Below are positions 1 through 24,167 of a stretch of 38,636 nt of DNA, one piece after another. Position 1 is the first letter of the stretch, and each line of letters opens with the position of its first letter. The stretch is from Candidatus Saccharimonadota bacterium (lineage in GTDB: Bacteria; Patescibacteriota; Saccharimonadia; Saccharimonadales; Saccharimonadaceae). The position numbers and the translations under genes were made by a program. The stretch lies in assembly GCA_017512175.1 (NCBI GenBank), contig JAFWHA010000006.1, positions 1 to 38,636 of the forward strand. Reading direction: 5' to 3'. Under the pieces are notes generated by a model, which saw only the letters and a program-made list of their open reading frames with translations, did no database searches and was not told where the DNA came from.

Positions 1-510
1 ATTACTTACCCTAAACTCTGCTTCTGTAATAGTATCTACTCCAGAAGGTAATACTAAGGTAGGTATTAGTCCAGTATCTCCAGTTACACTAGAGTCTGTG
101 TTAACTAGGTCTGTAGTATAGGTAGCAGTAGTACTATCACCGCCACTATTATCCCCACTATCTCCGCTATTGCTATCATTACTTACTGGATTAGTACCAA
201 TACTAGTCATATATAGCTTATAGCCTGTGACATTAGACGTAGAGCCTTCTACGTTAAAGCTTCCTTTGGTAAATACACCATTAGGGGTAGGGGTAAGACT
301 AAGTACTAGGCTACTTATTTCTGAGCTAGCAGTACTATCTAATATCCTAAGAGCAATAATATCCGACAAGGTTACCGTAACATCAGAAGAAGCAGAGGAA
401 TCAGTTGTGGCGGAAGCGGAAGGGATATTACTTATAGAAGCTGATATAACACCAAGAACACCAAAAATAGCTGAAGCAATAAACAATTTTTTCTCTATAC
501 TTTTTGGCAT
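1..510 (-). CDS. Secreted Ser/Thr-rich surface protein, C-terminus outside window
   Basis: Read on the minus strand, an open frame runs from an ATG at 510-508 off the left edge (170 codons seen, no stop). The start is fixed by a strong TAGGAGG site just upstream (plus-strand complement near 511-518). The N-terminus is MPKSIEKKLF followed by a hydrophobic stretch ending in SASA, a typical Sec signal peptide or anchor. The rest is very rich in Ser, Thr, Asp and Gly, with a low-complexity segment (NDSNSGDSGDNSGG) that looks like an extracellular linker. I recognise no domain. The gene has a long structured leader (see 562-675) and is divergent from a FISUMP-domain gene, so a surface-display role is likely but inferred. 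Confidence 0.75.
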   Translation of the reverse strand, partial: MPKSIEKKLFIASAIFGVLGVISASISNIPSASATTDSSASSDVTVTLSDIIALRILDSTASSEISSLVLSLTPTPNGVFTKGSFNVEGSTSNVTGYKLYMTSIGTNPVSNDSNSGDSGDNSGGDSTTATYTTDLVNTDSSVTGDTGLIPTLVLPSGVDTITEAEFRVSN

Positions 511-527
511 TGGCCTCCTAAATCATA

Positions 528-547
528 GATAATGAAAACTCATTATC
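528..547. repeat. Perfect 8-bp inverted repeat before the surface-protein RBS
   Basis: GATAATGA (528-535) and TCATTATC (540-547) are perfect inverted arms around AAAC. It lies about ten bases upstream of the AGGAGG site of the minus-strand gene starting at 510, so it could be an operator or an RNA hairpin near the ribosome binding site. Confidence 0.55.
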
Positions 548-561
548 GTTTATTTTATTTG

Positions 562-675
562 GGACACCGAAAGTCAAAAACGGTGTCACTAGGCGGAATA
601 CATCTGGATACATAAACCCGGATGTCCTAATGACACCGTTAAAAACGGGTTTATGTAAAAATCTAGATGTATTCC
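562..675 (-). promoter_or_regulatory. Structured 5' leader with mutually exclusive helices (riboswitch-like)
   Basis: In the transcript toward the gene starting at 510, an 11-bp helix (665-675 with 595-605) stacks through an 8/4-nt internal loop on a second 11-bp helix (646-656 with 610-620). The terminal loop contains AACGGTGTCA (631-640), a perfect 10-bp match to TGACACCGTT further on (579-588), which would form a pseudoknot. The same downstream segment (581-587) can instead pair with 563-569 as a 7-bp hairpin, so two folds exclude each other. The first stem arm begins at the predicted transcription start. Function and ligand are unknown. Confidence 0.55.
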
Positions 676-682
676 AATTATG

Positions 683-691
683 ATTATAGCA
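683..691 (-). promoter_or_regulatory. Extended -10 promoter for the leftmost surface gene
   Basis: On the minus strand this reads TGCTATAAT, an extended -10 element. A weak TTGCAA lies 19 bases upstream. Transcription would start near 676, giving a leader of about 165 bases before the ATG at 510. Confidence 0.55.
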
Positions 692-773
692 TACAAAAAA
701 TCATTTTTTGCAAAATTTTTCTATATTTTACGACATTAAGTTTTTGCGAACTTAGACATGGTGGGAGTCAAAT

Positions 774-1475
774 TTGGCCTCATTTTCCATAGTCTTAAAA
801 AGCACATTGTCAGACATTAGAGACGGTAAAACATACACTGTTAGAAAGATGGCTGATGGGAATTGTTGGATGGCAGAAAACCTGAAGTTCAAGCTAGAAG
901 CTAATAAGACATACACTGGAGTGAATAATACTACTGGAAATACTATTACGTTTTCTACTGGGGCTATATGTGGAAATGGCAACACTAACGCAGCTTGTAT
1001 TATGAATGGTAATACAGCTTACGACAGTACTTATGACTCTTGGTACTATTCTTGGTATGCTGCTACTGCTGGAAGTGGAACATCTAGCATGACCACCAAC
1101 GATGGCGATGCTGCAAACTCTATCTGTCCTGTGCACTGGAGACTACCGACTAACTACACCAATAAACAATATCCAGATGGGGGAGCTAATAAGTCTTGGG
1201 GATATCTAGTTAATGCTTATGGGATTTCTCCAGAAAACCACGCTTCAGACTCTGAATGGCAAACGTTAGTAGGACAGCCGTTTAATCTTTTACATGCAGG
1301 TTATTTTAGCATGGGCACTTTCCACAACAACGGAATTGGTTACCAATGGCATGCTACTTCTTCTATTCATGCTAGTGATGCTTATCGCTTAGGGTTCAAT
1401 ACGGCTCTTATTCATCCACAAGATAGCCAAGGTCCCAAATTTTATGGCTTTAACGTCCGCTGCGTAGCTATTTAA
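774..1475 (+). CDS. FISUMP-domain protein, probably 5'-truncated
   Basis: The product matches the Fibrobacter succinogenes major paralogous domain (TIGR02145-type): DIRDGKTYTVRKMADG then NCWMAENL near the N-terminus, ICPVHWRLPT in the middle, and GFNVRCVAI at the end. These proteins are normally secreted and many have a lectin-like fold. Here there is no signal peptide, no ATG and no ribosome site: the only early start in frame is TTG at 774, and an in-frame stop lies at 753-755. The ATG at 758 is in another frame and soon stops. The domain itself is intact to its C-terminus. I infer a gene whose 5' end was lost, or a silent cassette; a true short cytoplasmic protein is less likely. Confidence 0.6.
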   Translation: MASFSIVLKSTLSDIRDGKTYTVRKMADGNCWMAENLKFKLEANKTYTGVNNTTGNTITFSTGAICGNGNTNAACIMNGNTAYDSTYDSWYYSWYAATAGSGTSSMTTNDGDAANSICPVHWRLPTNYTNKQYPDGGANKSWGYLVNAYGISPENHASDSEWQTLVGQPFNLLHAGYFSMGTFHNNGIGYQWHATSSIHASDAYRLGFNTALIHPQDSQGPKFYGFNVRCVAI

Positions 1476-1525
1476 CCATAATTGTCAGATTATTGGCAAG
1501 CTGACATTATCAGTACGAAGCTTAA

Positions 1526-2086
1526 TTATAATTTATGAATATCGTATTCGTCTAAGTCTTCATATGCGTACGAAGACTGTATCCCTCTCATATAGACTTC
1601 GCGGTCGGAAATTTTGTCGGTTAAAGCGTTTTGAAGTAAAGTCTTAATTTCCAAATCGTTTATTGGGGAGCGCTCCATGGCGGAAAGGTATTCGGTTTTA
1701 TCAATTTTTGACCAGTCTATACATTTGCCAAGCTCTTTTTTTAGAATTTGGTCTAGCCAAATTCTAGTTGCTCGGCCATTTCCTTCGCGAAATGGATGCG
1801 CAACGTTCATTTCTACGTATTTTTTAACGATTTCGTCAAAGGTTGCTTGTGGCATTGCGTCAATGGTGCGCAGAGCGTCTTTTAGATACATTGCTGGCGC
1901 GAAACGAAAGTTATTTTTAGAAAGATTCACATCTCTGATTCGACCTGCAAAGTCGAAGATATCCTGAAATAGGTATTTGTGAATCTGCTGTAAGCCACGA
2001 GTCGTACCTATCTCGTAATTGTCTATTATATTATCAGAAAATAACTCTAAAGCGCGTTTTTTGCTAACAAGTTCTTCGTTATCCAT
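1526..2086 (-). CDS. fic: Class III Fic protein (AMP-transferase, toxin-like)
   Basis: Fic enzymes transfer AMP from ATP to a target hydroxyl; the related NmFic of Neisseria modifies GyrB and ParE. The 186-residue protein carries the full catalytic motif HPFREGNGRATR (residues 97-108). Overall it resembles NmFic by eye, including GTTRGLQQIHKYLF and DFAGRIRD upstream. Class III Fic proteins hold an inhibitory helix at their own C-terminus with motif [S/T]xxxE[G/N]; here residues 172-177 read SYAYED, keeping the blocking Glu176 but with Asp in the last position. The start has a -10 box (TATAAT, complement 2093-2098) six bases before the ATG, so the mRNA is probably leaderless. No separate antitoxin is next to it, as expected for this class. 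Confidence 0.9.
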   Translation of the reverse strand: MDNEELVSKKRALELFSDNIIDNYEIGTTRGLQQIHKYLFQDIFDFAGRIRDVNLSKNNFRFAPAMYLKDALRTIDAMPQATFDEIVKKYVEMNVAHPFREGNGRATRIWLDQILKKELGKCIDWSKIDKTEYLSAMERSPINDLEIKTLLQNALTDKISDREVYMRGIQSSYAYEDLDEYDIHKL

Positions 2087-2109: not shown

Positions 2110-2823
2110 TTATTTTTTCAACCCAGAGTCAAGATATTGTTTGACGTAGTCCCAACCCCAGTTAGTATCGAAACCGCCATTCGTGAAACTTCCGAATTTG
2201 AAGTAAGGCAAACCACCATCGACATTTTTTGCGGCGCGCTCGGTGTTAGCTCGAATTTCTGGAAGCATTTGGTGTTCGTTAAAACAGGTGTCGAAATTAG
2301 AGGACAAACCAAGTTTGTGGCCGATGTTTAGCCAGTAGTCTGCGGTCATGTTAGTGATTGCTGGGCTAGTCTTTGATGCGCCGACGCCTTGAGATTGATA
2401 ATCATCCCAGAGTGAGCGCAGTGCGGCATGATAATATTCCCAGAATTTCCCTTCGTTTCTAGCGCAGTATACACCTTCTGCTGACCATTCAGACATATTT
2501 GGCTTGTGTTCGCTGTAGAGTTTCAAGAATTCAGTAACGCGTACTTCGAAAAGGATATCTTTTCCTTCGATATAATCTGTGATAAATTCTTCTTCGTGTT
2601 CTGCAATTTGCCTAGAAAATGCATCACAATATGGGCAGGCTAAGTCTGTATACATGATATAGTAGTTTTTTGCGTCCATATTTCCGAGCGTAGTGCCTTC
2701 GTTCCAGACTTTGTCAGCATGGTCTTCTGTACTACTGCCTCCGTACATGTTAAACATAATTAACGCGCCTAGTAGTAATAAAACTATTATAAAAATCGTT
2801 GTCGTGAGTGCTCTGCTTTTCAT
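2110..2823 (-). CDS. Membrane-anchored DsbA-like thiol-disulfide oxidoreductase
   Basis: The 237-residue protein has one N-terminal membrane segment (about residues 9-26) and an outside thioredoxin-fold domain of the DsbA/DSBA-like family. The active site is C63-P-Y-C66 after the strand YYIMYTDLA, and the cis-proline is P206 in GGLPYFKFG. Two more cysteines, C120 and C180, could form a structural disulfide. It should make or shuffle disulfides in exported proteins. GCAGGAGG before the ATG is a strong ribosome site. It lies 12 bases after the upstream gene (2836-3495), which also has a CxxC motif, so the pair is probably an operon. Confidence 0.85.
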   Translation of the reverse strand: MKSRALTTTIFIIVLLLLGALIMFNMYGGSSTEDHADKVWNEGTTLGNMDAKNYYIMYTDLACPYCDAFSRQIAEHEEEFITDYIEGKDILFEVRVTEFLKLYSEHKPNMSEWSAEGVYCARNEGKFWEYYHAALRSLWDDYQSQGVGASKTSPAITNMTADYWLNIGHKLGLSSNFDTCFNEHQMLPEIRANTERAAKNVDGGLPYFKFGSFTNGGFDTNWGWDYVKQYLDSGLKK

Positions 2824-2835
2824 TTTCCTCCTGCT

Positions 2836-3495
2836 CTACTTTTTGTTATGACTGTTTTGCCACTCTTCATCTATCATTATAACATACGCTTCCTCGCCAA
2901 CTTTTTTGACGGAAAGAACAGCTATAATAATCGTAATAACTAAGATGATGCTAGAAATGGTGCTGGCTAGAGCATAACTTCCGGTAGAAAAGATTGCTCC
3001 AAGTATCGGGGTGATTAATGCCGTACCACAAGTCGGGCAGCCGCTTCCTAAAATAGCGAGTCCAGCCACTATGCCGGCACTTTGGACATTAGTGGAGTTT
3101 CTGTCGTTTTCTGAGATATTGTCTTGGCTCTTAGCTTTTGCTGACCTTGTGCGTTTCTTTTTCCAAACTAGAACAATGAGCGAAATCAGTAGTGCTTGTA
3201 AGATTGAAACTGAGAAAATCAGCAGCCAATCAGAGAAAGTCCTACCAATGCCAAATAATGCTAAAAAGCCATCCGAAATGATTCTGAGTTTTCCGTTAAG
3301 ATCTGTTGCGAAGAATAAGTTAACCGCACCCATGCCGCCAGAGAGTAGGGAAAGAAGCGTGCCGAAAACAACAAATGACAGAATGAAAATAAGCCAGAAT
3401 TTAAATTTCTTACTGGCTAGTACAATGCCCATAGCAGAGAGCCTAAATCCATCACACCATTTCAAAAATTTGCGCTTAAATTTTTCTTTTTTCAT
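2836..3495 (-). CDS. Multi-pass membrane protein with CPTC motif, DsbA partner
   Basis: This 219-residue protein has a basic N-terminus and about four or five membrane segments (near 33-52, 91-110, 140-160 and 165-195). The loop or segment GSGCPTCGTALITP holds a CxxC pair at C153 and C156, next to the predicted membrane. I do not recognise a named family. Because it is directly upstream of the DsbA-like gene in one transcription unit, I infer that it passes electrons to or from that enzyme, in the way DsbB, DsbD or VKOR do. A TATAAT (complement 3521-3526) and GAGG lie before the start, and a second extended -10 (complement 3657-3665) lies further up. Confidence 0.7.
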   Translation of the reverse strand: MKKEKFKRKFLKWCDGFRLSAMGIVLASKKFKFWLIFILSFVVFGTLLSLLSGGMGAVNLFFATDLNGKLRIISDGFLALFGIGRTFSDWLLIFSVSILQALLISLIVLVWKKKRTRSAKAKSQDNISENDRNSTNVQSAGIVAGLAILGSGCPTCGTALITPILGAIFSTGSYALASTISSIILVITIIIAVLSVKKVGEEAYVIMIDEEWQNSHNKK

Positions 3496-17637: not shown

Positions 17638-17659
17638 AATCCCGATAAGGGATTTTTTT
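17638..17659 (+). terminator. Terminator after the peptide-binding protein
   Basis: AATCCC-GATAA-GGGATT followed by T; converges on tRNA-Leu and touches its CCA end. Confidence 0.75.
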
Positions 17660-17747
17660 GGTGCGCCCGACTAGACTCGAACTAGCACAGCACTAAATGG
17701 CCACTACCACCTCAAGGTAGCGTGTCTACCAATTCCACCACGGGCGC
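17659..17747 (-). tRNA. tRNA-Leu (anticodon GAG)
   Basis: Minus strand: acceptor GCGCCCG with CGGGCGC, anticodon loop TTGAGGT, long variable arm, T-loop TTCGAGT, discriminator A, encoded CCA. The second leucine tRNA of the window. Confidence 0.95.
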
Positions 17748-17902: not shown

Positions 17903-17931
17903 TTGACATAAGCTTTATTTTGCCATAAAAT
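17903..17931 (+). promoter_or_regulatory. Promoter of first WxL-like gene
   Basis: TTGACA (17903-17908), 17-base spacer, TAAAAT (17926-17931). The -35 lies in the box GTCTTGACATAAGC, which recurs before the next gene. Confidence 0.85.
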
Positions 17932-17983: not shown

Positions 17984-18679
17984 ATGTCCAAAATAAAAAC
18001 TATTGCTATCGGACTGGGACTTGTTTCTGGTTTTAGCATGGCTGCTTTGCCACTCGTAGCCTATGCTGATCCGGGAGATTATCCTCAGGCCTCTGCCGAC
18101 TTGCCGGTCAATCTAGTCGTTAATGATGTCATTAGCATGACGATTAGGTCTTACTCTGGCTCAACGCCTACTCTTAACGGTACGACTGAATGTGCTTATG
18201 ATGATTCTACTGATGATTATTCCTGTGTCACTACGGGTGAGCAAAAAGTTTATACTACGATTTCTCCAGGTCAAGTTGATAACACGACTATGTATTCCGA
18301 CATTTTTGTAAGCACTAATTCAACTGCTGGCTATACGCTAAAATTGATTGACGCTGACGAGGTGACTAGCCTTACTTCTAATGAAGGCTACACGATAAGC
18401 ACGATTAGTTCTGAGCCTTCCACTTCTAATCCAGGTTGGGCAGTGACCGTAACAGACGGTGGTGTAACTTCTGGTTGGCAGGCTATGCCGAATAATGCGT
18501 CTGCTACTAATCCAGATATTGTCGCAGGTACGCCGATTACAGTTGCGAACTATACTCCAGCTACCAAAGTAGTCACTAATAATAGGCAGAGCACTGTGCA
18601 TTATGGAGTAGCCGCAAAAAGCGATCAGGTGACTGGAGTTTATACGGATACAGTAGTCTATACCGCTACGGCCAAATAA
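17984..18679 (+). CDS. Secreted WxL-like surface protein 1
   Basis: A 231-residue exported protein. The signal peptide ends at about residue 28 (AYA-DPGDY). The rest is beta-rich, Thr/Ser-rich and repeats the layout of the next gene: an N-terminal ...VISMTI strand, GW motifs (NPGWAV, SGWQAMP) and the C-terminus VHYGVAAKSDQVTGVY...VVYTATAK. This matches the general form of WxL-domain surface proteins of Gram-positive bacteria, though I cannot see the exact paired WxL motifs, so the name is provisional. A leader with AAAGGG before the ATG gives a ribosome site. Strong promoter and terminator make it a single-gene transcript. It is likely displayed on the cell wall, perhaps for host contact. Confidence 0.7.
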   Translation: MSKIKTIAIGLGLVSGFSMAALPLVAYADPGDYPQASADLPVNLVVNDVISMTIRSYSGSTPTLNGTTECAYDDSTDDYSCVTTGEQKVYTTISPGQVDNTTMYSDIFVSTNSTAGYTLKLIDADEVTSLTSNEGYTISTISSEPSTSNPGWAVTVTDGGVTSGWQAMPNNASATNPDIVAGTPITVANYTPATKVVTNNRQSTVHYGVAAKSDQVTGVYTDTVVYTATAK

Positions 18680-18694
18680 TATATATTATATATA

Positions 18695-18726
18695 AAAAAA
18701 GACCACCACTAGAGGTGGTCTTTTTT
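18695..18726 (+). terminator. Terminator of WxL-like gene 1
   Basis: A-run plus GACCACC pairs with GGTGGTC plus six T around ACTAGA: a 13-bp stem if the A/T runs are counted. Confidence 0.9.
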
Positions 18727-18827
18727 ATGCCCTTGAGGACTTAGCAGTTTAGAGATTAAGTTATTGATGCGCTATGGGGACTATTAATTTTGTGGAAAAC
18801 TTAATTAAAAAAACTTTTAAAAAAGTC

Positions 18828-18856
18828 TTGACATAAGCATTAGTATTTAGTAAGAT
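18828..18856 (+). promoter_or_regulatory. Promoter of second WxL-like gene
   Basis: TTGACA (18828-18833), 17-base spacer, TAAGAT (18851-18856), inside the same GTCTTGACATAAGC box as the previous gene, preceded by an A-rich tract that may act as an UP element. Confidence 0.85.
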
Positions 18857-18914
18857 AGAAAGTACAAAGGTCATATAAATAAACAATAAATAAAAAATAG
18901 AAAGGAAATTTATT

Positions 18915-19829
18915 ATGTCCAAATCTACAAAAATTATTGCTGCGCTTGGTTTAGCTGCAGGTCTTGGAGTTGCTTCGATTCCAGTAGCAACGTTTGCTCT
19001 TCCTAGCACAGAGCCTTATGCTGTTGACGGCAACGTTGATCTTTATGTTGAGATTCCAACTGCTATCGCTATGACTATTAAGGGCAACAACGATGATGAT
19101 AGCCTATACGAGGAGCAGGGTGTTACTCACGTTTCTAACACGGCTTCTACTGGCTACAACGTAAATGGTATTAACGTTTATGATGGTTATGCTACGGATG
19201 ACACTCAGACTCCAGCTGCTCACGCTGACACTGGTACGGTAGATGGTCACCAGGTAACCGATACTGATGCAACTAATCACATCTTGAACAAGACTGGCTC
19301 TCTCAGATCTTCTTCCTATGCATTCCTAGATCAGAACCAATTTACAGTAGGTACGCTTGATGGTACTGGGACTAATGGTGGTTTCAAATCTACCATTAAG
19401 GTCTATACCAACAATGGTACTGGTTACAACTTGAATGCTAGTGGTGTTAGACCAGCTGCAAGTGAAACTGCTGTCGCTCCGGATCTAACTATGACTTCTG
19501 GCACTAATACTTACACTATTCCTGCTGCTGCTATTACTGGTACTCAAACTGGCGGTGTCTACACTTCTGGTTGGGGATACAAAGTGGTTAAATATCAAGC
19601 TGAAGGTGTAAACGTTGATGACGAAGCTTCTGGTGCAGCTCAAGTAACTGATGCAGCTTTCTCTGCAATGCCTGCTTACAATGCAACTACTGCTAACACT
19701 ATCGACAGCCTAGACAGTGCAACTTCTGATGGTCGTGAAACTGTAGTTCTCTACGGTGTACAGACCGCTCCAGATCAGGCTGCTGGTGTCTACAAGACTA
19801 CCCTTCTTTACACTGCAACTACTAAATAA
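18915..19829 (+). CDS. Secreted WxL-like surface protein 2, probably abundant
   Basis: A 304-residue exported protein paralogous to the preceding one. The signal peptide ends near residue 28 (TFA-LPS). The mature N-terminus YAVDGNVDLYV nearly repeats that of the sorting-signal protein at 22086 (YSVDGNVDVYV). The body is Thr/Asn/Gly-rich beta structure with SGWGYKV and AFSAMPAYNATT, and the C-terminus VLYGVQTAPDQAAGVY...LYTATTK parallels paralogue 1. GAAAGGAAA precedes the ATG. Codon choice is narrow (GCT, ACT and GGT dominate), and the promoter and the perfect 12-bp terminator are strong, so I infer a major surface protein. Confidence 0.75.
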   Translation: MSKSTKIIAALGLAAGLGVASIPVATFALPSTEPYAVDGNVDLYVEIPTAIAMTIKGNNDDDSLYEEQGVTHVSNTASTGYNVNGINVYDGYATDDTQTPAAHADTGTVDGHQVTDTDATNHILNKTGSLRSSSYAFLDQNQFTVGTLDGTGTNGGFKSTIKVYTNNGTGYNLNASGVRPAASETAVAPDLTMTSGTNTYTIPAAAITGTQTGGVYTSGWGYKVVKYQAEGVNVDDEASGAAQVTDAAFSAMPAYNATTANTIDSLDSATSDGRETVVLYGVQTAPDQAAGVYKTTLLYTATTK

Positions 19830-19845
19830 TTAGTTCTGTGAAGAT

Positions 19846-19873
19846 AAAAATAACCCCGAAAGGGGTTATTTTT
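19846..19873 (+). terminator. Terminator of WxL-like gene 2
   Basis: Perfect 12-bp stem AAAAATAACCCC / GGGGTTATTTTT around a GAAA tetraloop. Confidence 0.95.
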
Positions 19874-19939
19874 ATGGTAAGATTTTACCTAACAAGAAGA
19901 TGTTTCTATTATATCACAAGTATTTCTAAAAGTCAATAG

Positions 19940-19968
19940 TTGTCAAGCTTACCATCCTCATGTATAAT
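19940..19968 (+). promoter_or_regulatory. Promoter of the DUF916-like anchor pair
   Basis: TTGTCA (19940-19945), 17-base spacer, TATAAT (19963-19968), then AAGGAGG at 19981-19987. Confidence 0.85.
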
Positions 19969-19990
19969 GGAGTACATAACAAGGAGGTTA

Positions 19991-21001
19991 ATGGCTAAAA
20001 AACTAAAAATTATTCTGGCTGCTTTTCTTGCGGCTGTAACAATCGGTGGGTATTCTATCGTATCAACTAAACCAGCTTATGCAGACGAGGCTGCACCGAT
20101 TCACTTGCAGGTGTCACCGGTCAAGCAAAAAGTGTCTATCGTACCAGGCTCTAAATACACTGGCTCGTTCAGAGTACAAAATGTAGGTACGGAAGGATTT
20201 AATTATACTGTCTACGCAACTCCATATAGTGTTACTAATGACAATTATGATGCTGATTATGTAGCGACTAGCAATTATACTCAGATTGCAAATTGGATTA
20301 CTTTCGATAGGGATGCTGGATATCTGAAAGCAGGCGAGACGCATGAAGTCACTTATTATGTAGACGTTCCTGAGAATGCTCCAGCTGGTGGTCAGTACGC
20401 TGCTCTTATGGCGCAGACTGATGCTGGCAACTCTGAAAATGCTACAATTGCAGTCGTCCACCGTGTCGGTATGCTTTTATACGCATCAATTCCAGGCACA
20501 ACTGTGGAAACTGGGGAAATTATCAAAAACTCAGTAAATAGCTTTTATTTTAACCCTCCTGTAACGTTCTCATCTTTAGTTAAAAACACTGGTAACGTAC
20601 ACCAAATGTCTAAGACCACTGTCAATGTTTGGCCGCTATTCTCCAAAGAAACCATATTTTCTAATCAAGAAGCTCCATCAGAACTTGATGTGCTTCCGGA
20701 AACTAGCCGCTTTAATTCTATTACTTGGAATAATGCACCAAGTCTTGGCATCTTCTGGGTACAGCAGAAAATTGAATTCGCTGGGCAGGTATCTAATGTT
20801 GAGAAGTTCATGTTGATTTGTCCACTCTGGCTACTCTTCGTTATCTTCGCTCTACTATTCTTCATCATCTTCTGGCTAGTGTCACGTTCTCGCGATCGCA
20901 AACGCAAGGCGCGTGCCGCTGCAGGAGAGGTAAGGGCTCCTCGCCGTGAGCCTACAAGTGAGAGATCTGAAGCCAGATCTGATAAGGCATCAAAACAATA
21001 A
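19991..21001 (+). CDS. DUF916-like surface anchor protein 1
   Basis: A 336-residue membrane-anchored surface protein. A signal peptide (to about AYA-DEA) is followed by beta-sandwich domains starting HLQVSPVKQKVSIVPGSKYT, with VPENAPAGGQYAALMAQTD in the middle; this is the layout of the DUF916/WxL-interacting (WxLIP) proteins. A C-terminal helix (about 275-300) leads to a long basic cytoplasmic tail. AAGGAGG three bases before ATG 19991 sets the start; an earlier ATG would precede the promoter -10. It is the first gene of a pair with a paralogue 19 bases on. In Gram-positive WxL loci such proteins bridge WxL proteins and the wall; the same role is inferred. Confidence 0.75.
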   Translation: MAKKLKIILAAFLAAVTIGGYSIVSTKPAYADEAAPIHLQVSPVKQKVSIVPGSKYTGSFRVQNVGTEGFNYTVYATPYSVTNDNYDADYVATSNYTQIANWITFDRDAGYLKAGETHEVTYYVDVPENAPAGGQYAALMAQTDAGNSENATIAVVHRVGMLLYASIPGTTVETGEIIKNSVNSFYFNPPVTFSSLVKNTGNVHQMSKTTVNVWPLFSKETIFSNQEAPSELDVLPETSRFNSITWNNAPSLGIFWVQQKIEFAGQVSNVEKFMLICPLWLLFVIFALLFFIIFWLVSRSRDRKRKARAAAGEVRAPRREPTSERSEARSDKASKQ

Positions 21002-21020
21002 GGGAAAGGAGATTAGTCTA

Positions 21021-21992
21021 ATGAAATCATTAAAAAATGGCTTGGTGGCTTTAGCACTAGTCCTGACAGGCGCAATCGCTCCAGCTATTAACACCTATGC
21101 AGAGGGAGAAAATACAGGGACAAGTTCTGCTTCTTCATCATGGATTCAGGTTACGCCAGTATCTTCTCGTGTAGTATTACGTCCTGGTCAAGCGCTAGAA
21201 TACTCGATGGTGGTATCTAATATCGGTACCGACACCTTCAAATACAGTGTCTACACAGCGCCTTACTCGATCGTAGATGAGGATTATAATGTTAGCTTCT
21301 CTAACGAGACTAATCGCACGCAACTTTCTCGTTGGATTCAGTTCATTAATGAAGATGGCTCCGTTACGGACAAATATACTGGTAGTTTAGCTCCTAATGA
21401 GAAACATACCGTTAATTATCGCATTACTGTTCCAGAAGACGTGCCAGCTGGCGGACAGTACGCTACGATTTTCGCACAGACTGATGCAGATGACAAAGAT
21501 ACTGCCTCATCTGGTATCAAGACAGTTTCTCGTATCGGCTTAGTAGTCTATGGCCGCACGAACGGTGAAACGAATGAAAGCGCAGAGATTGTTGATTATA
21601 GCGTGCCATCTTTCATGTTGAATGGTCCGATTACAGCTACTTCTAAGGTGAAAAATACTGGTAATACGGATATTGAGATCAAGCAGAAATTCACAGTAAA
21701 GAATATCTTTGGTAGTGTATTGACAGAAGATGAACAAGCATATAATTTACTTCCAGATACTGAACGTAGAATGAATAGTAAATGGGAAAATACTTCGCCG
21801 ATGGGGTTATTCTGGGTGACCTATAGCGTCTCTAGCTCAGCTATTGAAAATGCTAGGGAAGAGACTAGACTCGTAATCATCTTACCGATTTATATGATTG
21901 TGATTATGATTATTCTCTTGACAATTATTATTGTTTGGATTATAATCCTAGTTAGGAAGCGCAAAGAGCGCAAAGGTAGACTGAAAGTCTAG
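21021..21992 (+). CDS. DUF916-like surface anchor protein 2
   Basis: A 323-residue paralogue of the previous gene. Signal peptide to about TYA-EGE, then WIQVTPVSSRVVLRPGQALE, VPEDVPAGGQYATIFAQTD, KNTGNTDIE and LLPDTERRMNSKW, each matching a block of paralogue 1. One C-terminal membrane helix (about 289-314) is followed by a short basic tail RKRKERKGRLKV. AAAGGAG lies before the ATG at 21021; an open frame extends upstream inside the previous gene but the signal peptide and ribosome site fix this start. A hairpin GAAAGTC/GACTTTC spans the stop codon and may slow transcription or protect the mRNA. Confidence 0.75.
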   Translation: MKSLKNGLVALALVLTGAIAPAINTYAEGENTGTSSASSSWIQVTPVSSRVVLRPGQALEYSMVVSNIGTDTFKYSVYTAPYSIVDEDYNVSFSNETNRTQLSRWIQFINEDGSVTDKYTGSLAPNEKHTVNYRITVPEDVPAGGQYATIFAQTDADDKDTASSGIKTVSRIGLVVYGRTNGETNESAEIVDYSVPSFMLNGPITATSKVKNTGNTDIEIKQKFTVKNIFGSVLTEDEQAYNLLPDTERRMNSKWENTSPMGLFWVTYSVSSSAIENAREETRLVIILPIYMIVIMIILLTIIIVWIIILVRKRKERKGRLKV

Positions 21993-22085
21993 CGAGGGAC
22001 TTTCTCCCCTATCTTTCTACCGTGCGAGGGTAGAGCTCAGAGTGCAAGCCAAAACAAAAAAATAAAATAAACGAGAGTGTAGAGT

Positions 22086-23006
22086 ATGCGAATAACAAAA
22101 AAGCAACTACTTGGGCTTTCTGGTCTTGCCTTTGTTGCTGGCATGACTATGGTAGCCTGCAGTCTCCCATCAAGTGCATATGCGGCTGAAGATTATTCAG
22201 TGGACGGCAACGTCGATGTATATGTGTATGTATATAGTGACAACTTTGAAACGAAGATTCAGAGTCCACTTGATGGAGAGGTATTTACTAATAGTGAAGT
22301 TCATTTTAGTGAAATTCACAGTAAAGCAAAAAACGTTAAATATTATTTGACTCATGTCGGCGAGGACGGAGAGCCGGATACTGTTTACGAATTGACTGAA
22401 TATGAAGTCGAAGGCTATAGTGTTGATGGGGTAACGGAGTTTGACCTTAATCTTAACAACTATGGTGGATGGGGAACGTATATCTTCAAATCAGTGATTA
22501 CTTCTGGTAGCGGAAAGACAGGCGAGGACTCAGTGAAATTCAATTACGCTGCTATTAATATCCCAGAGGAAGAAGTTCCTGCTGAAAATGGAGAAGTAAA
22601 ATTCACGATTGATTATGCTCCTACGGTGAAGATTGTCGATTTTGACATCTATGATAAGGACGGAAAGCTGGTAGCTCAAGTTCCTGGTTACGTTTTGAAT
22701 AATCCAACTACTGGCGGTAGTCAGAATGTTACACTTAATATTGACGAACTAGGTATTCCTAGCGGTAGCTATACGATAGTAGCAACTGGTTATGATACCT
22801 ACGATCGTTCTGGTGGCGCAATTGGCACGGACTCAGTGAAGTTCAGCTATAGCACTCCAGATGCACCAAATGTGCCAGATACTGGCTCGCTACTAGGAGC
22901 ACTTAATATCGCAAAGGGTGACTTCTTAGTTACTGGCTTGATTGGTTTTACAGTGATTAGTGTGATTGCGCTTATCGTTATCAAACGAGCTAATCGTAAA
23001 GAATAG
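22086..23006 (+). CDS. Surface protein with VPDTG sorting-type C-terminus
   Basis: A 306-residue exported protein. The signal peptide could end at AYA-AED, although a weak lipobox-like MVAC (C25) is also present. The mature start YSVDGNVDVYV copies that of WxL-like protein 2. Two beta-rich repeats follow, each ending in a GxDSVKF motif (EDSVKFNY, TDSVKFSY), like Ig-type surface modules. The C-terminus has VPDTG at 263-267, a spacer, a hydrophobic helix (about 281-298) and the basic tail KRANRKE, the layout of a sortase substrate with V in place of L. No sortase gene is in view. It closes the surface locus and is followed by a strong terminator. The ribosome site is weak. Confidence 0.7.
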   Translation: MRITKKQLLGLSGLAFVAGMTMVACSLPSSAYAAEDYSVDGNVDVYVYVYSDNFETKIQSPLDGEVFTNSEVHFSEIHSKAKNVKYYLTHVGEDGEPDTVYELTEYEVEGYSVDGVTEFDLNLNNYGGWGTYIFKSVITSGSGKTGEDSVKFNYAAINIPEEEVPAENGEVKFTIDYAPTVKIVDFDIYDKDGKLVAQVPGYVLNNPTTGGSQNVTLNIDELGIPSGSYTIVATGYDTYDRSGGAIGTDSVKFSYSTPDAPNVPDTGSLLGALNIAKGDFLVTGLIGFTVISVIALIVIKRANRKE

Positions 23007-23044: not shown

Positions 23045-23072
23045 AAAAGTGGCACGAAAAGTGCCACTTTTT
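23045..23072 (+). terminator. Terminator of the surface locus
   Basis: AAAAGTGGCAC-GAAAA-GTGCCACTTTT then T: an 11-bp perfect stem. Confidence 0.95.
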
Positions 23073-23132: not shown

Positions 23133-23209
23133 GGGCCGGTAGCTCAGCTGGTTAGAGCACGGGCCTTTTAAGCCCGGTGTCGAGGGTTCGAGTCCCTCCC
23201 GGCTCACCA
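23133..23209 (+). tRNA. tRNA-Lys (anticodon TTT)
   Basis: Acceptor GGGCCGG with CCGGCTC, anticodon loop CTTTTAA, T-loop TTCGAGT, discriminator A, encoded CCA. Confidence 0.97.
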
Positions 23210-23218
23210 TAGAAAAGT

Positions 23219-23295
23219 GGGCGGTTAGCTCAGTTGGCTAGAGCGCGTCTTTGACGTAGACGAGGTCAGAGGTTCGACTCCTCTATCGCCCACCA
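23219..23295 (+). tRNA. tRNA-Val (anticodon GAC)
   Basis: Acceptor GGGCGGT with ATCGCCC, anticodon loop TTGACGT, T-loop TTCGACT, discriminator A, encoded CCA. Nine bases after tRNA-Lys, so co-transcribed. Confidence 0.97.
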
Positions 23296-23332: not shown

Positions 23333-23387
23333 GATGAGATTTAGCATCTTATGAACTTTATAAATGTTTTTATGCTATACTATAAGC

Positions 23388-24167
23388 ATGAGTATTAAGA
23401 AGACTAAATCAACCAAGAAAAATACCAAAACAGCTGCAAAGACTAAAGTAAGAGCTGCTGCCAGCGCTAGAGGTAAGGCTTCCATGCGTGCGAAAAATAG
23501 AATGGCGGCAAAAGCGTATTGTAAAAAGATGTGCAAGCCGAACAAAGTCGCATGTATTGTAGCAATTATAGTACTTGGAGTGGCAGCAATAGTAGCAGTG
23601 GCGTTTATCATGATTGCATCAACTTTCCATACCGATAAGACTTATACTTTTGGAATGAAAACTGATGCGGAAAGATTTGCTGCAGAATATACAGATGTAG
23701 ATACTGACAATGTGTTTATAATTAAGAATGGTAAAGAAACGATTGATATATTAGAGCATGGTACAGGGGTGGTATTCTTGGGTTTTCCAAGTTGCCCGTG
23801 GTGTCAGCGTTATGCTAAATATTTGAATGAGGTTGCTAAAGAAAAAGGAATTAAGAAGATTTATTATCACGATACTTATGACGATTGGCAGAATAACACT
23901 GATGATTACCAGAAGATTACAAGCATTTTGAGTGATCATTTGCAATATGATAATGATGGTAAGCGCCATCTTTATGTTCCAGATGTAGTCTTCGTGAAAG
24001 ATGGGGTAATCGTAGGTAATGATTATGAAACTTCCAAATATACTGCTGGTGCTAATACCCCAGATGAGTATTGGACTGAGGCAAGAGTAGTAGATCTTAA
24101 AGATCGACTAGGCAGTTTCATGGAGCTTGTCAAAACCGATGATTGTGAAGCGGCTTGTGATAAGTAG
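23388..24167 (+). CDS. Membrane thioredoxin-like protein with Lys/Ala-rich tail
   Basis: A 259-residue protein. Residues 1-53 are a Lys/Ala/Arg-rich cytoplasmic tail (for example KKTKSTKKNTKTAAKTK) that resembles the tail of histone H1; a membrane helix follows (about 55-78). The outside domain is thioredoxin-like with active site C136-P-W-C139 in GFPSCPWCQRY and a cis-proline P198 in YVPDVVFV. It probably reduces or shuffles disulfides of exported proteins. An extended -10 (TGC then TATACT, 23376-23381) ends six bases before the ATG at 23388, so it is leaderless; an in-frame ATG at 23364 lies upstream of the promoter element and is rejected. Confidence 0.85.
   Translation: MSIKKTKSTKKNTKTAAKTKVRAAASARGKASMRAKNRMAAKAYCKKMCKPNKVACIVAIIVLGVAAIVAVAFIMIASTFHTDKTYTFGMKTDAERFAAEYTDVDTDNVFIIKNGKETIDILEHGTGVVFLGFPSCPWCQRYAKYLNEVAKEKGIKKIYYHDTYDDWQNNTDDYQKITSILSDHLQYDNDGKRHLYVPDVVFVKDGVIVGNDYETSKYTAGANTPDEYWTEARVVDLKDRLGSFMELVKTDDCEAACDK

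Follow-up and report, generated by a model that had tools for sequence, protein, structure and literature searches.

A WxLIP-type gene cluster in a Saccharibacterium: a probable chaperone-assembled, sortase-anchored adhesive pilus of divergent Pam type

Strand complementation in fibre assembly has a Gram-positive precedent in TapA and TasA (PMC10151520), and a published model of the Firmicutes WxLIP protein has, as a prediction, a hairpin strand inserted to complete the WxL sandwich (PMC10599100). The locus described here also suggests that the WxLIP proteins of Firmicutes are PapD-like chaperones, in which case assemblies by strand exchange might be a product of the WxL clusters too. A further system, Pam, in the candidate phyla radiation (CPR) is known here from its NCBIfam names alone; a literature search under the names Pam pilus, PamR and PamT found nothing on a CPR pilus, and part of the mechanism proposed below may already be described at the source of these names. 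No literature was found connecting Saccharibacteria with WxL. Little has been established about the means by which CPR epibionts attach to other bacteria; the type IV pili of Saccharibacteria are seen as tethering from afar, with further close-range adhesins proposed to follow (PMC12206443). Described here is a cluster of five genes in contig JAFWHA010000006.1 of a Candidatus Saccharimonadota bacterium (the window, meaning the whole 38,636-nucleotide stretch analysed), which probably specifies a divergent, Pam-type, usherless adhesive pilus, assembled by chaperones and fixed at its base by sortase.

The window spans one complete contig (C17) of a draft genome of 612 kb in 17 contigs, and the closest relatives in the named genome collection are Saccharibacteria metagenome-assembled genomes, mostly from ruminant gut, so the CPR assignment made in the initial annotation is right. 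Between a tRNA-Leu gene (17659-17747, minus strand) and two tRNA genes (23133-23295, plus strand) lie five consecutive plus-strand open reading frames (ORFs), the products of which all have a signal peptide and are called pilS, pilL, WIP1, WIP2 and IgLP, names coined in this analysis. The initial annotation had read them, in this order, as two WxL-like secreted proteins, two DUF916-like anchors and a sorting-signal protein, making up a wall-bound WxL adhesin complex that would be a good candidate for host attachment.

WIP1 (19991-21001, plus strand; 336 residues) is a membrane-anchored, two-domain WxLIP/PapD-like protein and putative pilus chaperone, and WIP2 (21021-21992, plus strand; 323 residues), 36% identical to it, is a second WxLIP-like protein and putative second chaperone. 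The true start of WIP1 is the ATG at 19991, downstream of AAGGAGG, rather than a TTG at 19940. Of the Pfam models proposed for such anchors, PF06030 is matched weakly by WIP1 (E 0.02; 15.3 bits, below the curated cut-off of 27.3) and, at E<=0.1, by 18 of 36 family members (best 4e-5), and PF11797 was not detected in either WIP protein. Searched against the PDB, the WIP family profile (A1) finds the solved E. faecium EfmWxLIP1 (9i25/9i1y) at E 2e-4, the next match being at 0.02. Pfam matches of the A1 profile of similar strength, to NEW3/NPCBM_assoc, fn3_5 and DUF7927, were set aside as generic immunoglobulin (Ig)-like folds.

The AlphaFold2 model of WIP1 (pLDDT 89) has two Ig-like domains, with strands up to residue 278, and then a transmembrane (TM) helix at 281-316. 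Its best structural match is WxLIP (Foldseek 5.5e-13; VIA Z 14.1 with 228 residues aligned, the root-mean-square deviation of 7.9 probably being inflated by the domain angle), and the next are the periplasmic pilus chaperones CsuC, SfaE, Caf1M and FimC (VIA Z about 12; 161-189 residues aligned), the range with PapD included being Z 10.5-12. WIP1 and WIP2 are true relatives of WxLIP, in agreement with the two DUF916-like anchors first proposed, and WIP1 as modelled has a PapD-like chaperone fold. A low-confidence loop (146-158) lies in the model between strands 135-145 and 159-169. It is in a position of this kind that chaperones of the PapD type have the strand which they lend to pilins, and the WIP1 loop may be equivalent to the strand-lending loop of PapD-type and WxLIP proteins.

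The two secreted proteins encoded upstream, pilS (17984-18679, plus strand; 231 residues), a small pilin-like subunit, and pilL (18915-19829, plus strand; 304 residues), a larger one with an N-terminal strand and C-terminal domain as in pilS, are by family tests not WxL proteins. Neither has a W-x-L motif, pilS having WAV and WQA and pilL WGY, and PF13731 gives no match in the organism's own genome at E<=1, with a Lactococcus control positive, and none among 28 pilin-family members. They are related instead to Pam: both match the Pam pilin C-domain model NF058581 weakly but along nearly all of the model domain, across the whole C-terminal domain in pilS, and profile-profile comparison (hhalign) links the window pilin family to canonical Pam pilins (probability 95.5, E 1.5e-8) and not to the CPR WxL proteins of L204-L209 (probability 1%), these last having only a weak link to Pam pilins. 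Judged by sequence, pilS and pilL are distantly related to the Pam pilins of the CPR. In an AlphaFold2 model (pLDDT 86), pilS consists of a signal peptide, an N-terminal strand segment (about residues 31-49, the mature N-terminus) placed outside the beta sandwich, and a 9-strand beta domain. Structural matches include CfaB (5.6e-4), PapE, CupE, FimA, Csu pilins (CsuA/B), cannula proteins and TasA (Z 6.4), and the WxL chain of 9i25 is not among the matches listed. The modelled fold is thus supported as a class, chaperone-usher-pilin/TasA-like, and resembles donor-strand-exchange pilins and fibre proteins.

These results bear directly on whether the locus makes a true WxL/WxLIP complex, with the small proteins binding peptidoglycan as a platform, held by WIP1 and WIP2, and acting as a non-polymerising adhesin. 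WIP1 and WIP2 are clear WxLIP relatives, two small secreted proteins together with WxLIP resemble WxL cluster content (PMC10599100), PF13731 is matched elsewhere in the phylum, by proteins of 10 of 380 genomes (5 above cut-off), and a Trp that is invariant and a C-terminal strand rich in Y seem to fall roughly at the WxL motif positions. The lack of W-x-L in pilS and pilL, the absence of PF13731 and a profile link that leads to Pam pilins rather than to CPR WxL proteins make such a complex unlikely, and a strand-exchange pilus with chaperones is the better reading than a peptidoglycan-bound WxL platform. What survives of the WxL complex is an extracytoplasmic, wall-attached complex with WxLIP-type proteins, but not the assignment of the two small proteins to WxL. 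An apparently real WxL/WxLIP pair does occur in another Patescibacteria genome, where a PF13731-positive WxL protein (41.5 bits) adjoins two WxLIP-like genes (L204:1884-3065, 3073-3381 (-) and 460-1887 (+)).

A stand-alone paralogue of pilL (L006:5887-6846), 78% identical counting gaps, sits on contig C9 away from other pilus genes; its signal peptide and strand are near-identical to those of pilL and its C-terminal half is more divergent, and pilin switching or variation is possible. Two genes from it, on the minus strand (L006:8155-10815), is the gene for a secreted protein of 886 residues that has GDSGNTG repeats of collagen-like type (PF01391) and ends in a VPEVG tail.

The last gene of the cluster, IgLP (22086-23006, plus strand; 306 residues), encodes a putative base terminator and wall anchor with an N-terminal pilin-type strand, one or more Ig-like domains, a VPDTG sorting signal, a TM helix and a basic tail. 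The C-terminal succession of VPDTG, hydrophobic stretch and basic residues is the layout of a sortase substrate, an xPxTG motif is present in all 32 IgLP tails examined (27 of them [VLI]PxTG), and the genome has two sortases above cut-off, on contigs C3 and C6, with a sortase in 145 of 147 genomes of the genus; the sorting-signal protein of the initial annotation is confirmed, and a sortase route is supported. IgLP is tied to the pilins by its N-terminus, as a profile of the pilin N-terminus (signal peptide and first strand) run genome-wide has four significant matches, the three pilins and then IgLP (E 8.8e-7). Reduced to the mature strand, the 16 IgLPs tested have a mean of 8.2 bits, the mean of shuffled sequences being -1.1, and half of them (8 of 16) beat all 200 of their own shuffles. 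Examples of the strand are AVDGNVDLYVEIPTAIAMTI in pilL and SVDGNVDVYVYVYSDNFETKI in IgLP.

Run on 12 related genomes, this profile has many large proteins among its matches as well. A pilin domain (hidden Markov model (HMM) E <1e-6) is present in 19 of the 20 that were examined among those with the shared strand, and 8 of 10 scanned with Pfam match FISUMP (PF09603), 4 above cut-off, often with InlB-type repeats between. These large strand-pilin-FISUMP proteins, lectin-like in character, look like adhesin subunits of the relatives. Loci L238-L254 from four related genomes (G137, G311, G361 and G120) hold a secreted family with signal peptide, pilin-type strand, pilin domain and repeats, often with FISUMP, and with up to about ten members per genome. 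One match of the profile, L255, was rejected as false. That a strand occurs on so many secreted proteins, lectin-like ones included, and directly after the signal peptide, would also be expected of a secretion or sorting feature that is no donor strand, in which case WIP1 and WIP2 would be general envelope chaperones. This seems very improbable, as the strand is followed by a pilin domain in nearly all such proteins examined and in IgLP, to go by its sequence, appears as an extension to the Ig-like body.

At the left end of the window, the minus-strand ORF at 1-510, which is ended by the contig edge, would be a further subunit, with a signal peptide, a pilin-type N-terminal strand and the start of a pilin domain. 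Its pilin HMM score is weak (13 bits), as is its BLASTP match to L115:10754, and it is probably a truncated member of the pilin-FISUMP adhesins seen in relatives. Near it lies a FISUMP-domain ORF without signal peptide (849-1475, plus strand; PF09603, 36 bits).

The arrangement is widespread. A WIP1-like gene is found in 143 of 147 genomes of the genus and, by profile search, in 226 of 295 genomes of the class, and the order pilin(s), WIP1, WIP2, IgLP is repeated in about 20 regions from relatives, where the cluster often sits between a 577-residue solute-binding-type protein and a thioredoxin-like/DUF308/GTPase-type run. Across 78 loci of other species in the named collection, 34 of 92 WIP1 genes have WIP2 immediately downstream, and in 32 of these 34 pairs IgLP is next. 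Gene order and presence conserved across the genus mean that the arrangement is not due to chance. Among the WIP1 genes without an adjoining WIP2 some are cut by contig ends and many stand alone next to a single pilin-like gene, so the machinery has diversified.

Transcription signals divide the cluster into units. Promoter-like sites on the plus strand precede pilS (TTGACA-17-TAAAAT, 11/12; 17903-17931), pilL (TTGACA-17-TAAGAT; 18828-18856) and WIP1 (TTGTCA-17-TATAAT, 11/12; 19940-19968), and terminator-like hairpins on the same strand follow pilS (18705-18719) and pilL (19846-19873; AAAATAACCCC-GAAA-GGGGTTATTTT, read directly in the sequence). WIP1, WIP2 and IgLP form a third, separate unit that closes at a strong terminator hairpin 3' of IgLP (23045-23071, plus strand). 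With a promoter-like site and a hairpin to either pilin gene, and with WIP1, WIP2 and IgLP set apart, the locus is not one simple operon; the five consecutive genes are indeed in order, an order kept in relatives. The sites of pilS and pilL have TCTTGACATAAGC in common, and an extended form, TTGACATAAGC..TAARAT, also precedes pilin genes in loci of several relatives; the 13-mer with <=2 mismatches is on its own no rarer in the window than expected by chance.

A promoter-like site for each pilin is as for abundant fibre subunits, and so bears on another possibility, that WIP1 and WIP2, having RbmA-like folds, form with the pilin-like proteins a heterogeneous, non-filamentous surface coat or biofilm matrix on the epibiont. 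RbmA is among the Foldseek matches of WIP1, the VIA matches of pilS to TasA and cannula proteins would fit a coat, and PamR is described by NCBI as RbmA-like. However WIP1 and WIP2 are TM-anchored and more like chaperones than RbmA, and the sorting signal of IgLP suits a fibre base; a coat of this kind is rather improbable.

From the computed features of the locus, namely the homologies and folds of its proteins, the gene order, the sorting signal and the shared N-terminal strand, we infer a pilus that would work like a chaperone-usher pilus lacking the usher: subunits would polymerise by donating strands, chaperones would act on them, IgLP would be the base and be coupled to a sortase, and the fibre would adhere to hosts. 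The pilin subunits (pilS, pilL, the dispersed paralogue and, in relatives, the pilin-lectin adhesins) would be exported with the beta sandwich still incomplete and the N-terminal strand free, and the open groove would be capped at the membrane by the PapD/WxLIP-like WIP1 and WIP2. Subunits would be joined by placing the N-terminal strand of each in the groove of its neighbour. As IgLP carries the shared strand on an Ig-like body without a pilin domain, it would plug the groove of the last subunit and accept no further one, and through its VPDTG a sortase would link the fibre base to peptidoglycan, with the adhesin domains presented by the fibre towards the host.

Several results weigh against this pilus. 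With NF058581, for which the cut-off is 55 bits, pilS and pilL score 15-17 and the best paralogue 25. The VIA Z scores of pilS are middling (6-8) and the two best rows (Z 9) are a hexosaminidase N-domain, so that the fold class is supported and the family is not. The pilin N-terminus profile includes half of the signal peptide, and the shuffle test of the mature strand is weakened by an automatic signal-peptide cut that is imprecise for several proteins. The sortases are encoded outside the cluster, IgLP has no PamR match and no window protein a PamT match, and a model of a monomer does not reveal which strand is donated. Taking both sides together a sortase-fixed, chaperone-assembled pilus still seems the probable function. 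More tentatively, IgLP as base terminator and interchangeable pilin-FISUMP lectin subunits might all share one donor strand in a sortase-anchored, usherless strand-exchange pilus. Such a pilus would bring chaperone-usher pili, the Pam pili of the CPR and the WxL/WxLIP clusters of Firmicutes into a single machine family and provide a close-range, host-selecting adhesin.

Downstream of the cluster a thioredoxin-like TM protein with a CPWC motif and a weak PedC/BrcD match is encoded (23364-24167, plus strand); it may form the disulfide of those pilS-type proteins, several in number, in which two Cys residues make a pair. Near the left end of the window are genes for a Fic-domain protein (PF02661; 1526-2086, minus strand) and a DsbA-like Thioredoxin_4 protein (2110-2823, minus strand).

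Found in almost all genomes of the genus, the locus is a concrete candidate in which roles can be assigned to chaperones, shaft, base and adhesins. It could be a means of holding on to hosts, and the adhesive role first suggested is plausible.

Compared with known systems, WIP1 and WIP2 share with the WxLIP proteins of Firmicutes clusters (PF13731; PF06030 and PF11797) a DUF916-like domain, a second Ig-like domain and a C-terminal TM segment, but the secreted partners in the window are not WxL and a sortase-anchored subunit with a pilin-type N-terminus is added. With chaperone-usher pili (Csu, Fim, Pap, CFA/I) the window has in common a PapD-like two-domain chaperone, a pilin fold that leaves the N-terminal strand free and an alternating hydrophobic strand common to subunits, whereas it belongs to a monoderm-type cell with membrane-anchored chaperones and sortase wall anchoring; this cell type argues against an outer-membrane usher, for which no usher model was searched. 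The TasA/TapA fibres of Bacillus offer the likeness of an usherless Gram-positive strand-exchange fibre, TasA being among the structural matches of pilS, but no sequence similarity was found, and the window has separate PapD/WxLIP-like chaperones and a sortase-type base protein. CPR Pam (NF058578 PamR, NF058579 PamT and NF058581) comes from the same class of Patescibacteria, its pilin domains and WxLIP-like parts are related to those of the window, and the order of pilins of two sizes, a WxLIP-like TM protein and an Ig/PKD-type TM protein in the canonical loci L034 and L035 is found again in the window and in about 20 loci of relatives. In contrast to the window, the canonical loci contain PamT and PamR equivalog matches, L034 has one chaperone-like protein where the window has two, and the PamR-type proteins of L034 and L035 are without the xPxTG that the last gene product of the window carries. 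By strict family tests the locus is neither a WxL nor a Pam equivalog; it is a diverged Pam relative that uses WxLIP-type proteins.

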